Assembly: GCA_036273515.1 (NCBI GenBank)
Contig: DASUHM010000068.1
Coordinates: 1-37,026, forward strand
Source: Gaiellales bacterium
GTDB taxonomy: Bacteria > Actinomycetota > Thermoleophilia > Gaiellales > JAICJC01
Direction of reading: 5' to 3'
Length of the DNA: 37,026 bases
How positions within the stretch are numbered: the first letter of the stretch is position 1; every line of letters begins with the position of its first letter. The notes under the pieces were generated by a model that saw nothing but the letters and a program-made list of their open reading frames with translations, was not told the origin of the DNA and searched no databases. Shown here piece after piece: positions 7,009-33,609 of the stretch. Made by a program: the position numbers and the translations under genes.

Positions 7009-7081
7009 GGGGCGTTAGCTCAGCTGGGAGAGCACCAGCTTTGCAAGCTGGGGGTCACCGGTTCGATCCCGGTACGCTCCA
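7009..7081 (+). tRNA. tRNA-Ala (anticodon TGC)
   Basis: The 73 bases fold into a complete cloverleaf. The acceptor stem is GGGGCGT (7009-7015) with ACGCTCC (7074-7080), including the G3-U70 wobble pair that identifies alanine tRNAs. The anticodon arm is CCAGC-TTTGCAA-GCTGG with anticodon TGC. The T arm has GGTTCGATCCC, and the discriminator base is A at 7081. CCA is not encoded. Its 3' 32 bases are repeated exactly at 10595-10626, so this gene is the inferred integration site of the segment that follows. Confidence 0.97.
7049..7080 (+). repeat. attL-like repeat: 3' end of tRNA-Ala
   Basis: These 32 bases run from the 3' strand of the anticodon stem to the end of the acceptor stem and are identical to 10595-10626. 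Exact duplication of a tRNA 3' end at the two borders of a foreign segment is the classic trace of tyrosine-integrase insertion. The copy here keeps the tRNA functional. Confidence 0.85.
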
Positions 7082-7217: not shown

Positions 7218-7595
7218 TCAGTCGGGGTGTGCGTGGGACGAATGCTGGAGGTGTCCGAGTCGGAGAACCACGTCGCGCGCGACGTCCCGCAGCTTCCGAT
7301 TTCGATCCTGCGACGTCTGGCGGAGAAGGCGAAACGCGTCCCCGCGACTGACCCCGTAACACTGGCAGATCGCCGTCTTCGCCCGCTCGATCTCTGGATC
7401 CCGGCCGACCTTGGCGCACTCGTGGATGATGAACGGCTCGACCTGCGCCCAGGGCACGATCCCGTCGTCGCAGGCAGCCGTGAGCCGATCCAAACGGCGC
7501 AGGTGGGTCGTGGCGAGCTCGTCGACGAGGTCGACGGACGAGGCGTGTACACACCCACCGCCACCGACAATGATCGCGCGCTCGTTCACGCCCAT
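7218..7595 (-). CDS. Stand-alone ANTAR domain protein
   Basis: This 125-residue protein has its C-terminal ~55 residues matching an ANTAR domain: IERAKTAICQCYGVSRGDA, FRLLRQTSQD, then NRKLRDVARDVV. ANTAR domains bind RNA as dimers at paired hairpins with six-base loops and control termination or translation. The N-terminal ~70 residues show no recognisable sensor domain, so it may be controlled by abundance, by a partner, or by the GAF-ANTAR protein nearby. The ATG is preceded by GAGGTGGG. It lies 75 bases downstream of a STAS gene on the same strand and is probably co-transcribed with it. Confidence 0.8.
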   Translation of the reverse strand: MGVNERAIIVGGGGCVHASSVDLVDELATTHLRRLDRLTAACDDGIVPWAQVEPFIIHECAKVGRDPEIERAKTAICQCYGVSRGDAFRLLRQTSQDRNRKLRDVARDVVLRLGHLQHSSHAHPD

Positions 7596-7670: not shown

Positions 7671-8036
7671 TTATGCGGGCTGTCCGCCTCGTTCTCGTGC
7701 CGTAGCGGCGCGCAACGCGTCGTCACGGTTCTCGAACAGCTCCAGGACCTTGAACGCTTCGACGAGGTCGAGGGTGCGTCGGGGTTGACCGTAGTGAGGG
7801 GCGACGATGAGGAGCTGCTCGCGGAGCTGCGCGTGGCGGATCGCGGTGGTGATGATGCTGGAGTCGATGAAGGTCGCCGCCGTCAAGTCGAGTATGACGA
7901 TCGTGCCGCCTTCCTCGATCCGGGTGAGTGCTTGGTCGAGTTGTGGGGCGGTGGCGAGGTCGTGCTCGCCGCTGGCGGAGACGACCGTGATCGAGTCGCC
8001 GAGGTCGTGGACCTCGACCGCGCTTTCTGGAGACAA
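7671..8036 (-). CDS. STAS domain anti-sigma factor antagonist-like protein
   Basis: The 121 residues form one STAS domain. GEHDLATAPQL opens it, and LDLTAATFIDSSII contains the DSS segment where SpoIIAA/RsbV proteins carry the phosphorylated serine. Such proteins release a sigma factor by binding its anti-sigma kinase when unphosphorylated. The TTG start at 8036 was chosen because AAGGGGGG lies seven bases upstream and STAS homology begins seven residues later. Upstream in-frame starts would add a low-complexity extension. The ribosome-binding site can pair with an upstream arm, and a hairpin with loop AACGGC lies further up. No kinase gene is nearby. Confidence 0.8.
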   Translation of the reverse strand: MSPESAVEVHDLGDSITVVSASGEHDLATAPQLDQALTRIEEGGTIVILDLTAATFIDSSIITTAIRHAQLREQLLIVAPHYGQPRRTLDLVEAFKVLELFENRDDALRAATARERGGQPA

Positions 8037-8039
8037 CGC

Positions 8040-8080
8040 GAAGCCCCCCTTCGTGATGTTCCGAGGGGCCGCCGGGCTTC
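8040..8080 (-). promoter_or_regulatory. Leader structure that can hide the STAS ribosome-binding site
   Basis: On the minus strand GAAGCCC (8080-8074) can pair with GGGCTTC (8046-8040), and CCCT (8067-8064) with AGGG (8050-8047). Together they close around a 13-base loop. The AAGGGGGG ribosome-binding site of the gene starting at 8036 lies inside the 3' arm, so the folded form should block translation. This was seen by eye; no folding energy was computed. Confidence 0.5.
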
Positions 8081-8118
8081 GCGCGCGAACGCCGCCGGGA
8101 TCCGCCTCGGAAGCGTGG

Positions 8119-8140
8119 CTGGCTCCGCCGTTGGAGCCAG
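8119..8140 (-). promoter_or_regulatory. Candidate ANTAR-target hairpin with hexaloop AACGGC
   Basis: On the minus strand CTGGCTCC pairs perfectly with GGAGCCAG (eight base pairs) around the six-base loop AACGGC. A at loop position 1 and G at position 4 are the conserved bases of ANTAR-bound hairpins. It lies about 80 bases before the STAS start at 8036, in an operon that also encodes an ANTAR protein. Known targets have two such hairpins; I could not find a convincing second one, so this is only a candidate. Confidence 0.45.
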
Positions 8141-8198
8141 GTGAAGAATATCTGCCACGGCGAACCGACCGCAACCAACTCCAGCTCCGCACGTTCCG

Positions 8199-8489
8199 CT
8201 ATGGCGGCTCGGGTGTGGTCTGCGCGCGGGCGTACCGTCTGGTCGAGGGTGAGGGGTTGGGGTCGGGGCGGTGCGCGCCTGCGGCCGCGGGGGGAATCGA
8301 GGGGGAGGAGGGGCTTCGGACTGCTGGGCGGCTCGATCGGGGTCGTGTGGGCGGCGCCCGCCCCCGGGTGGACGGGCTACCGGACGCGGTCGCCGGCCCT
8401 CTGTCGGCGAGGATCGTGATGACGGCGACGTAGATCGTCACGCCGAGGGTAACGACACCAACCGCGATCCCGACCGTCTCCGCGTCCAC
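8199..8489 (-). CDS. Small membrane protein with proline/serine-rich tail
   Basis: The 96-residue product starts with MDAETVG and one hydrophobic helix of about 20 residues (VGIAVGVVTLGVTIYVAVI), followed by a low-complexity tail rich in Pro, Ser, Arg and Thr. The GTG start is supported by AGGAGG seven bases upstream. No family is recognised. The N-terminal helix and good ribosome-binding site argue that at least the first 30 residues are real; the tail could be read through non-conserved DNA. It lies upstream of the STAS and ANTAR genes on the same strand and could be the membrane component of that group, which is speculation. Confidence 0.45.
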   Translation of the reverse strand: MDAETVGIAVGVVTLGVTIYVAVITILADRGPATASGSPSTRGRAPPTRPRSSRPAVRSPSSPSIPPAAAGAHRPDPNPSPSTRRYARAQTTPEPP

Positions 8490-8610
8490 GATCCCGCCTC
8501 CTGCCCGGAGTCGAAGGGCTGCTTCCTCGCGCCGATACTGATCGGTGGACGCGGGTGGTACGATGGTGGGCGTCAGGTTGAGATGCCAGCCGGTCGGGGG
8601 GTGAGGTCAA

Positions 8611-8657
8611 TCCGTCCGAGGCTTGCAGAAAGCCTGGCAGCCGCAGACAACGACGGA
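8611..8657 (+). promoter_or_regulatory. Nested stem in the leader of the second STAS gene
   Basis: TCCGTC (8611-8616) can pair with GACGGA (8652-8657), enclosing a perfect inner hairpin AGGCTT (8619-8624) / AAGCCT (8630-8635) with the five-base loop GCAGA. With the stem at 8675-8709 it makes a leader of about 100 structured bases before the STAS gene at 8711. A regulatory role is inferred. Confidence 0.35.
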
Positions 8658-8674
8658 CTCCGGGTTTCGGCGCG

Positions 8675-8709
8675 GCCTCTCCCCAACGTCGTGAGTGACG
8701 GGGAGAGGC
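8675..8709 (+). promoter_or_regulatory. 10-bp hairpin that sequesters the ribosome-binding site of the STAS gene
   Basis: GCCTCTCCCC (8675-8684) is perfectly complementary to GGGGAGAGGC (8700-8709). The 3' arm contains the GGGGAGAGG ribosome-binding site of the ATG at 8711. The 15-base loop can form an extra GTC/GAC stem with the hexaloop GTGAGT. As drawn, translation should be off unless something opens the stem. The hexaloop does not have the A1/G4 bases of known ANTAR sites. Confidence 0.6.
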
Positions 8710-8710
8710 A

Positions 8711-9109
8711 ATGGCCGGAGGAGAGTTCCACGCTCAGGATCTGGGTGAGCACCGCTGGGTGCTCTCGGCGCAGGGAGAGGTCGACCTTTCAACCACCCCG
8801 TCGCCGCGCGCCGTGATCGAGGCGGTGATGGACACGGGGACGCGGGTGGTCGTCGACGTGTCGGCGGCCGAGTTCATCGACTCCACGACGGTCAACGCTC
8901 TGGTGTACGGCCATCAGCGAGCGGCGGAGGACGCGTGCCATGCCTTCGTGATCGTGGCCGCGCCGGGATCCGCCGCACGCCGGCTCCTCGACCTGCTGAG
9001 CATCGTCGAGGTGATCCCCCTGTACGACAGCCTGGCGGAGGGCGAGCGGGCCGCGTTTAACGGCACGGCTCAGAGGACGCCGTCGGGGTCGATCGACCCG
9101 CTCCGCTGA
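8711..9109 (+). CDS. STAS domain anti-sigma factor antagonist-like protein
   Basis: This 132-residue protein is essentially one STAS domain: GEVDLSTTPSPRA near residue 22, then VDVSAAEFIDSTTVNALV. The DST segment contains the serine expected to be phosphorylated by an anti-sigma kinase. A short tail (TPSGSIDPLR) follows the domain. The ATG start has a strong GGGGAGAGG site, but this lies in the 3' arm of a perfect 10-bp hairpin. The last 40 bases overlap the convergent GAF-ANTAR gene. No kinase or sigma factor lies in the segment, so it would have to act on a host partner. Confidence 0.85.
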   Translation: MAGGEFHAQDLGEHRWVLSAQGEVDLSTTPSPRAVIEAVMDTGTRVVVDVSAAEFIDSTTVNALVYGHQRAAEDACHAFVIVAAPGSAARRLLDLLSIVEVIPLYDSLAEGERAAFNGTAQRTPSGSIDPLR

Positions 9110-9813
9110 GCCGCCGCGACGAGTCGCGCCGCGACCTCCGCGAGCCGTACATTCTTGTTCTGGGACGCCTTGCGGAGAATGTCGAAGGCGTCGTCGGCGG
9201 TGCAGCGGCGTTCCCGCATCAGCATTCCCTTGGCCTGGTCGATCACCGCGCGGCTTCGGAGCGCGTTTGCCAGCTCGTGCGCGAGTCGTGCCGTGGCGCG
9301 GTGGAGCTCGGCTGTGGAGATCGCCGTACCCAGCTGCGCTGCGAGGAGCTGGCCGGAGCGGATCTGCTCCTCGGCGAAGTGGCGCTGCTCACGCGAGTAG
9401 AAGTTCAACGAGGCGCCCAGTGCCTGGTCGTGGTCGATGCTGACCCCGACCGACAGGCTGCTGTGGATCCCCAGCTGGGTGGCCAGGTCGGCGACGTGCT
9501 GCCAGCGCTCGTCCTCGCTGAAGTCGTCCACGACGATCGGCTCGTCGTTCTGCAACAGCGCCTGGATGCACGGCCCGTCCTTGGCCTCGTACTGGGCCTC
9601 GTCGATATGCACGAGCCGCGAGTCGCTCGTCTTCACCGTCGAGTAGATCTCGCGCTCGCCGATCGTCAGCGTCGCCCCGTCCGCGCCCAGCGCATCGACG
9701 GCGAAGTCGATGATCATCTGGATCAGCCGCTGCAGCCGCGCCTCGGTGCCATCCACCTCATCCGGAGGCCCCACCTTCGGCACACCACCGTCAGGCACGG
9801 TCCACCGTCCCAT
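9070..9813 (-). CDS. GAF-ANTAR sensor/RNA-binding regulator
   Basis: The product has 247 residues. Residues ~25-165 form a GAF domain (VDALGADGATLTI, KDGPCIQALLQ, then PIVVDDFSEDERW and GIHSSLSVGVSI), a small-molecule or redox sensor fold. Residues ~185-240 are an ANTAR domain (AVIDQAKGMLMRERRCTADD, FDILRKASQNKN, RLAEVAARLV), which binds RNA hairpins. The protein is therefore predicted to switch termination or translation of target messages in response to a signal. Ligand and targets are unknown; the hairpins in this same segment are the nearest candidates. The ATG has GGAG nine bases upstream. Its 3' end overlaps the convergent STAS gene by 40 bases. Confidence 0.85.
   Translation of the reverse strand: MGRWTVPDGGVPKVGPPDEVDGTEARLQRLIQMIIDFAVDALGADGATLTIGEREIYSTVKTSDSRLVHIDEAQYEAKDGPCIQALLQNDEPIVVDDFSEDERWQHVADLATQLGIHSSLSVGVSIDHDQALGASLNFYSREQRHFAEEQIRSGQLLAAQLGTAISTAELHRATARLAHELANALRSRAVIDQAKGMLMRERRCTADDAFDILRKASQNKNVRLAEVAARLVAAAQRSGSIDPDGVL
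9086..9099. repeat. 14-bp perfect palindrome in overlapping gene ends
   Basis: GGGTCGATCGACCC is identical on both strands. It sits in the 40-base overlap of the convergent STAS and GAF-ANTAR genes and encodes GSIDP in both proteins. It may be a protein-binding site, a processing signal, or a chance result of both frames using the same codons. Confidence 0.6.
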
Positions 9814-31826: not shown

Positions 31827-31985
31827 ATGTGGCTACTCATACTTCTCATCCTTGCCCTGATCCTCTTCGGGGTCTGGGGCGCGATCAAGCTCGCTTTCTG
31901 GGTGCTCTTGATCGCACTCGCTGTGGCGCTCGTCGTCGGGTTCCTCGGCCGCGGCCTCTTCGGGAGCCGCAGGGGCGCCATCTAG
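31827..31985 (+). CDS. Very small membrane protein, 52 residues
   Basis: The predicted product is almost wholly hydrophobic: MWLLILLILALILFGVWG, then AIKLAFWVLLIALAVALVVG, ending FLGRGLFGSRRGAI. This gives two membrane helices with a positively charged C-terminus, probably inside. The ATG at 31827 is preferred over a GTG at 31803 because TACCTAT ends six bases before it. Proteins of this shape are common in actinobacteria and not functionally assigned. A very strong hairpin follows the stop. Confidence 0.65.
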   Translation: MWLLILLILALILFGVWGAIKLAFWVLLIALAVALVVGFLGRGLFGSRRGAI

Positions 31986-32001: not shown

Positions 32002-32039
32002 ACGGGCCGGCGGCGCGCAGTCGTGCGCCGCCGGCCCGT
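32002..32039 (+). terminator. Perfect 15-bp hairpin between two tiny membrane protein genes
   Basis: ACGGGCCGGCGGCGC (32002-32016) pairs with GCGCCGCCGGCCCGT (32025-32039) around an eight-base loop. It is the strongest stem seen in the window. It begins 17 bases after the stop of the 52-residue gene and ends 33 bases before the next ATG. It is probably a T-run-less terminator. Confidence 0.7.
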
Positions 32040-32286: not shown

Positions 32287-33609
32287 GTGCACCGGATCGC
32301 CTGGAGGGCCCTGGCGGCGGCGGCGCTCGTCGCCGTCCTGATCGTCGGCCGCAGCTCGGTCGAGCCCGGCCTCGTCGTCGCCACGGTCGGCAAGCCGCCC
32401 GACCGCAAGCCCCTGGTCATCCACGGCGCGCGCACGCCGATCCGCCACATCGTCTTCATCGTCAAGGAGAACCGCTCCTATGACAGCATGTTCGGGCTCT
32501 TCCCCGGCGGCGACGGCACGCGCACCGGGCGCACCGCCGACGGCGGGGTCGTGAAGCTGCGCCGGCTGGAGGACGTGCAGACCGACCTCCAGCACAACCA
32601 CCACGCCGCGGTGACCGACATCGCCGGCGGGGAGATGAACGGCTTCTCGGAGATGCCGGACAAGGACGGGAAGAAGACGATGCTCGCCTATTCGACGGCG
32701 TTCCCGGGACAGCTGCCGGACTACTGGGGCTGGGCCAAGCGCTACGCGCTGCTCGACCACACCTTCTCGTCCGGCGACACGTCCAGCTTCCCCAACCATC
32801 TCTACACCGTCGCGGCGAACGCGGCCGGCGCGGTGGACGGCCCCAACTTCGGGGTCGAGAACTGGGGCTGCGACGGCCCGGTCAACCTGACCGTGCCGGT
32901 GATCCGCCGCGGCGAGCTCGTCCACGTGCGGCCGTGTTTCCCCGTCGACTCGATCGGCGCACAGCTCGACCGCCGCGGCATCCCATGGACCCAGTACGGC
33001 CCGCCCGAGAACGGCCACGGCTACGGCTGGGTCGCCTACGACGCGGTGAAGCCGATCCGGGAGAGCCCGAGCTACGCCCGCCACGTCCTGCCGCTCGGGT
33101 GGCTGCCCAGCGACCTCGACCAGGACTACCTCGGCGCCGTCACCTGGATCGTGCCGCCGTACAACCGCAGCGACCACCCCGGCGGCGCGTCCCTGTGCGA
33201 GGGCGAGAGCTGGACCGCCGACCTGATCAACCGGATCATGCGCCTGCCGGACTGGCGCCACACCGCGATCGTGCTCACGTGGGACGAGTGGGGCGGGTTC
33301 TACGACCACGTCGCGCCGCCGCAGCCGGACCGCTTCGGCCTCGGCGTGCGCGTCCCGATGCTGATCATCTCGCCGTGGGCGAAGCGGGGTGTCATCCACA
33401 CGACCTACGACTTCACCTCCGTGCTCAAGTTCATCGACGAGGACTTCGGCATGCCCATCCTCAGCCGCCGCGAGCAGCAGTCGAACTCGATCCGAAACGC
33501 GTTCCAGTTCTCCCACCCGCTGCCGCGCTGGCAGGCGCCGCTGCGCAACTGCCCGCCGGTCTCGGCCGCCGAGCTGGCGGCGACCGGCAGGAACATTGAC
33601 CCCAGCTGA
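32287..33609 (+). CDS. Secreted phosphoesterase (phospholipase C / acid phosphatase family)
   Basis: The product is 440 residues with an N-terminal signal or anchor ([19 protein letters not shown]). [17 protein letters not shown] is the characteristic first motif of the phospholipase C/AcpA-type phosphoesterases and contains the catalytic-site Glu-Asn. [19 protein letters not shown] and the metal-site block [20 protein letters not shown] follow, then [14 protein letters not shown]. Such enzymes cleave phosphate esters of lipids or other substrates outside the cell. Four cysteines in the mature part may form disulfides. Its end overlaps the sulfotransferase start by 14 bases. Confidence 0.88.

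Follow-up and report, generated by a model that had tools for sequence, protein, structure and literature searches.

Whether a STAS-domain gene is held shut at the ribosome, and what might then open it, is the question raised by the leader of the gene beginning at ATG 8711. STAS anti-sigma antagonists are usually regarded as controlled by phosphorylation; strongly locking the translation of such genes would bring in a further layer, with protein dose gated at the ribosome. In the window, by which we mean the whole 37,026-nucleotide stretch analysed here (72% GC), a sequence-only reading had singled out a perfect 10-bp hairpin in which the Shine-Dalgarno (SD) sequence of this gene is buried. 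It had proposed a translational switch, with an ANTAR protein, a small RNA, a ribosome translating a leader frame, or temperature as candidate openers.

A predicted lock over the ribosome binding site of a STAS gene

The claimed pairing is borne out by the sequence. The two arms are fully paired, the 3' arm is the SD of ATG 8711 with a spacing of five bases from GGAG to the start codon, and the inner GTC/GAC stem with its GTGAGT loop is present as described (Table 1). The fold is also favoured in context, with a mean pairing probability of 0.98 for the arms. Four contexts were folded (8570-8760, 8560-8730, 8490-8800 and 8665-8740), and in all of them the SD bases 8700-8709 are paired with a probability of 1.0. 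The predicted folds place AUG 8711 in an internal loop between the outer stem and the lock stem. The hairpin segment is more stable than its shuffles (z -3.71), and the predicted cost of opening the SD is about 17.8 kcal/mol. The pairing, position and predicted stability of the lock are direct results of sequence and computation. A terminator role for the hairpin was rejected, there being no T-rich tail 3' of it.

The N-termini of several homologues fall at about residues 2-5 of the STAS protein, which argues for ATG 8711 as a better start than GTG 8759, the choice of our own gene caller alone, which falls inside the STAS domain. The strong third-position GC pattern of coding composition sets in near 8700. 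At its other end, the STAS gene overlaps the convergent GAF-ANTAR gene tail to tail by 40 bases (9070-9109).

Table 1. Features of the two STAS leaders and adjoining genes (positions are those of the window).
Feature	Position	Strand	Basis or remark
-10-like hexamer TACGAT	8559-8564	+	only TANNNT in 8490-8711 on this strand
Structured 5' domain of leader	8572-8638	+	outer pairs, P 0.99
Outer stem, 5' side (partner 8714-8720)	8665-8671	+	MFE folds; P 0.9-1.0 for 8714-8718
Lock 5' arm (anti-SD), GCCTCTCCCC	8675-8684	+	perfect complementarity to 3' arm
Inner GTC/GAC stem (8688-8690/8697-8699) with hexaloop GTGAGT (8691-8696)	8688-8699	+	sequence and fold
Lock 3' arm, GGGGAGAGGC, including SD GGAG (8702-8705)	8700-8709	+	sequence and fold
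STAS-domain protein, 132 aa, ATG start	8711-9109	+	PF01740, 36.9 bits; PF13466, 32.1 bits
GAF-ANTAR protein	9070-9813	-	PF03861, 74.2 bits; GAF_2, 52.3 bits; convergent with STAS 3' end
-10-like TATTCT of divergent STAS gene	8150-8145	-	AACGGC hairpin near predicted transcript start
ANTAR-type hairpin CTGGCTCC-AACGGC-GGAGCCAG, 8 bp, loop with A1 and G4	8140-8119	-	about 83 nt upstream of TTG 8036
Second start-locking hairpin, arms CGCGAAGCCC (8083-8074) and GGGCTTCGCG (8046-8037)	8037-8083	-	abuts TTG 8036
Divergent STAS gene, TTG start 8036	7671-8036	-	PF01740, 40.7 bits over ORF 7671-8192
ANTAR-domain protein (ANTAR positions 12-54)	7218-7595	-	PF03861, 52.6 bits; downstream of STAS 7671-8036

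The leader upstream of the hairpin

From the -10-like TACGAT, transcription is predicted to start at about 8571. A general promoter scan of 8000-9200 found no promoter, and leaderless transcription from ATG 8711 was rejected, TANNNT being absent just upstream. The leader opens with a structured domain: segment 8571-8640 has a z of -3.57, with none of 300 shuffles as stable. Taken as a whole (8571-8730), the leader stands out less, with a z of -2.64, which counts against the lock. A nested stem said to precede the hairpin at 8611-8657 was not recovered (pairing probability 0.0; z -1.33 for segment 8605-8660), the domain at 8572-8638 being favoured in its place.

A second SD-like word, GGGGTGAGGTC (8598-8608), offers the lock's 5' arm another possible partner and would be a partial antisequestrator. 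This pairing comes to -15.8 kcal/mol versus -23.5 kcal/mol for the SD duplex of the lock, and competitors in 79 of 500 shuffled leaders equal it. A stronger competitor for the 5' arm, CAGGGAGAGGTC, starts at 8771 within the coding region (-17.9 kcal/mol). None of the alternative folds checked convincingly frees the SD, including the one formed by 8598-8608, the best upstream competitor.

How unusual the lock is

The window has nine perfect inverted repeats that reach at least 10 bp and enclose loops of up to 25 bases, versus 4.45 expected from 40 shuffles, so a hairpin per se is not rare here. Elsewhere in the window, a 15-bp perfect inverted repeat with an 8-base loop (32002-32039), longer than any in 40 shuffles, falls between predicted genes 31827-31985 and 32287-33609. 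A 10-bp repeat as such is common in this DNA; its placement over an SD is rare. When the 96 upstream bases were shuffled and the last 14 kept, 6 of 2000 shuffled sequences had the 8711 SD covered by a repeat that reached 10 bp or more.

To place this start among others, the window was joined with 400 kb of the same genome (437 kb in all, about 10% of the genome), in which our own simple gene caller predicted 444 genes. An SD-like word marks 316 of the 996 candidate starts examined. Positions -12 to -4 are covered by stems of at least 10 bp at four of the 996 and at two of the 316, the latter being ATG 8711 and the divergent STAS gene's TTG 8036. Opening costs of at least 17.8 kcal/mol, with 8711 itself counted, are found at five candidate starts, three of them SD-bearing. 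The other two SD-bearing starts are operon-coupled, and 8711 has the highest opening cost of the 166 SD-bearing candidate starts that are not coupled, that is, without a same-strand gene closely preceding. Counted against the lock are the median opening cost of 6.75 kcal/mol among SD-bearing starts and the 134 of 996 candidate starts that fold overall at least as stably as 8711; strong start structure is thus common in the sample, in a 72% GC genome.

Nineteen STAS domains in the genome score over the cut-off, 18 of them with an assessable start. In just two of these 18 genes, 8711 and 8036, does the likely start carry a 10-bp hairpin. A further own-genome STAS gene (L221) has an 11-bp hairpin, but at an upstream GTG. 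Across 40 other STAS loci, with 67 candidate starts, three stems of at least 10 bp were found, which speaks against locus specificity. On inspection, the 13-bp stem at L033 (loop 56), over an upstream GTG, lies upstream of the likely ATG. Locus L048, the same place as L010, has two stems, of 10 and 12 bp; the stem at L010 was found by inspection to lie upstream of AAGGAG.

Search for relatives

No orthologue of the 8711 STAS protein was found in 60 relatives, where the best matches are paralogues at 40-46%, nor in 399 genomes of the class, 197 of the phylum, or genome_contigs; the plasmids searched gave one weak match and no orthologue. The divergent STAS protein likewise has no orthologue in the four relatives searched (best match 43%). 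The leader DNA has no homologue in the 399 class genomes. Weak matches at two loci (L068 and L069) align inside apparent protein-coding genes and were taken as chance. A covariance model of the single sequence, run against 149 class genomes, returned only itself and a 23-bit match in G157, whose surroundings read as coding and which was also dismissed as chance; across 51 other STAS/ANTAR loci, no score exceeded 15.6 bits. The hairpin-arm pattern ahead of an ATG occurs in at least 119 stretches of genome_contigs. Among the matches listed, 118 of 119 come with a phylum name, which in no case is Actinomycetota, and 57 ORFs of at least 40 aa from the listed starts include no STAS relative. An Rfam 15 scan of the window at gathering score found only a tRNA (7009-7081), and 20 other STAS loci gave tRNAs only.

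The divergent STAS leader

The adjacent, divergently oriented STAS gene, whose TTG start was chosen from N-terminal length and gene call, has a start hairpin of its own. This hairpin is also a perfect 10-bp one, a length reached in 10 of 2000 shuffles, and its opening cost is 12.3 kcal/mol. Read along the minus strand, the order is TATTCT, a hairpin with loop AACGGC, the 10-bp lock hairpin, and TTG 8036. The AACGGC hairpin has the A1 and G4 loop bases of ANTAR targets, and such hairpins with at least eight Watson-Crick pairs number four on both strands of the 437-kb sample, that at 8119-8140 included. It was noticed after the fact, and its probability is to be judged accordingly. Since the second ANTAR stem of this leader is weak (TTC-CGAGGC-GGA) and without A1, the 8036 leader is not a full ANTAR-target motif. 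Even so, ANTAR control is better placed at this leader than at 8711, and the AACGGC hairpin is a concrete candidate binding partner.

Two further observations belong here. A short minus-strand ORF (8199-8489) has a GTG start with AGGAGG seven bases ahead and a hydrophobic N-terminal stretch, and has no Pfam match. Elsewhere in the genome (C18), an 11-bp hairpin with the A1/G4 hexaloop AGCGCA (positions 749-776 of locus L225) precedes another STAS gene by about 0.7 kb.

Proposed mechanism and alternatives

The SD lock at 8711 is predicted to be unusually strong and is probably functional. We tentatively favour a cis-acting lock on translation that is OFF by default and would be opened by a trans-acting factor. 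The transcript probably begins near 8571; the lock's 5' arm, made ahead of the SD, would trap the SD as it emerges, and the outer stem would enclose the AUG further. Ribosomes would be blocked at ATG 8711 unless the factor acts. The opener might be a protein, a small RNA or a ligand, acting either by breaking up the hairpin or by drawing its 5' arm away. The protein held low would be a STAS-domain protein of the anti-sigma-antagonist type, whose dose could set the release of a sigma factor. Counted in favour are the independent 10-bp hairpin at the neighbouring start 8036, the homologue N-termini and coding composition that back ATG 8711, and the z of the 5' domain; counted against it, the genomes searched yielded no orthologue of the gene or its leader, hence no covariation or conservation. 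Of the translational switch originally proposed, the lock is well backed by prediction, with the top opening cost of its class of starts, and the switching is putative, no homologous leader having turned up in the genomes searched. As to a small RNA, a BLAST search of the genome itself with 281 bases gave no long antisense match to the lock hairpin.

The competing account that survives best, though we judge it unlikely, is that the hairpin arose by chance, or with slight benefit, from 72% GC DNA, and damps translation constitutively with no regulated opening. The excess of inverted repeats in the window would fit this, as would comparable opening costs at about 1% of SD-bearing starts (3/316), the lack of conservation in the genomes searched and the want of a plausible alternative fold. 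Against chance stand the top rank of 8711 among the non-coupled SD-bearing starts and the presence of a hairpin at both adjacent divergent STAS starts, each at 0.3-0.5% by shuffling.

Considerably less probable is a ligand riboswitch of the dauA type, with 8572-8638 as sensor and the SD hairpin as expression platform. The dauA motif (PMC11109978), as far as the available part of that article describes it, shares both the STAS family and SD occlusion, and the leader does offer a stable separate 5' domain and a partial antisequestrator at 8598-8608. Yet that competitor is no better than many shuffled ones, the predicted fold is a simple hairpin plus a separate domain and not a three-stem junction including the SD, and an Rfam scan of 8400-8800 at E up to 10 gave only two sub-threshold, eukaryote-type matches. 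The leader was also found in no other genome searched, which is unusual for a riboswitch.

Equally improbable, in our estimate, is a wider version of the lock, a translationally gated partner-switching module in which both STAS leaders would combine a 5' hairpin with a 10-bp start lock and an ANTAR protein encoded at the locus would read at least one of them, that of 8036, through its AACGGC hairpin. If true, it would tie RNA-binding ANTAR signalling directly to anti-sigma control.

That a nearby-encoded ANTAR protein (7218-7595 or 9070-9813) binds the 8711 leader itself and controls access to the SD, the first of the openers proposed, is very unlikely. Two ANTAR genes do flank the locus, an A1/G4 hexaloop hairpin is present in the divergent leader, and, according to the portion of PMC8164766 consulted, 611 ANTAR RNAs were predicted in actinobacteria, about 37% of them overlapping the ribosome binding site or start codon. 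But region 8490-8800 has no A1/G4 hexaloop on a stem of at least three pairs. Among the four hexaloop hairpins of 8571-8713, G4 is found in one and A1 in another, never together, and the remaining two, GTGAGT included, lack both bases, in agreement with the misfit of this loop already remarked upon.

Least likely of all is opening by a leader-frame ribosome or by heat: a frame from ATG 8583 crosses the hairpin to 8816 and the TGA stops of the other two frames fall in the hairpin loop, but codon scores are negative (-18.8 over 42 codons for 8583-8710 and -6.2 over 21 codons for 8629-8691, where predicted genes average 17.5 over 42 codons and have their 5th percentile at 6.2, in a test that does not reach very short peptides), and temperature is contradicted by the predicted unpaired fraction of the SD, which goes from 0.0001 at 37 C to 0.004 at 80 C.

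Comparison with known systems

Hairpins that bury the SD in a stem directly ahead of the start codon are familiar from RNA thermometers and translation-attenuation leaders, among others. The 8711 leader differs from the former in that its lock is predicted to be too stable for thermal opening, and from the latter in having no convincing leader peptide, with codon scores that are non-coding.

ANTAR-target RNAs are dual stem-loops with hexanucleotide loops conserved at A1 and G4, 2-25 nt apart, by the description in the part of PMC8164766 covered; they are bound by phosphorylated ANTAR proteins, and their hairpins over the ribosome binding site or start codon control translation. On that description, the 8711 leader resembles them in having a hairpin so placed, with ANTAR genes adjoining the locus, but has no dual stem-loops, its hexaloops being overlapping or weak only; in the 8036 leader, the first hairpin is canonical and the second weak.

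The closest precedent is the dauA motif (SRC-36-1), a candidate riboswitch with 57 unique representatives in Streptomyces, described in the available part of PMC11109978 as a three-stem junction that includes the SD, lies before STAS genes and is a proposed OFF switch. In the literature searched, the motif appears in that article only. Among titles and the opening lines of abstracts, with most subscription journals outside this coverage, no other SD lock on a STAS gene was found. Set against the published description, the 8711 leader is likewise structured and includes the SD of a STAS-domain gene (PF01740/PF13466), but is predicted to fold into a simple 10-bp hairpin over the SD, apart from its 5' domain. 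No relevant Rfam match was found at E up to 10, in a release, Rfam 15, that may not include dauA. The two probably differ in host as well, dauA being known from Streptomyces in the part of the article covered. Two genomes of the same phylum and a different class contain DNA similar to Streptomyces plasmids at 60-90% identity, so the 8711 leader probably belongs to an actinobacterium outside the Streptomyces class. By analogy, the 8711 leader, at most a candidate member of the motif, would work like the dauA leaders. It belongs to an already known kind, the SD-occluding leaders, and because the dauA leaders of this kind were proposed independently, as the available description in PMC11109978 has it, RNA-level control of STAS genes becomes a testable general idea.
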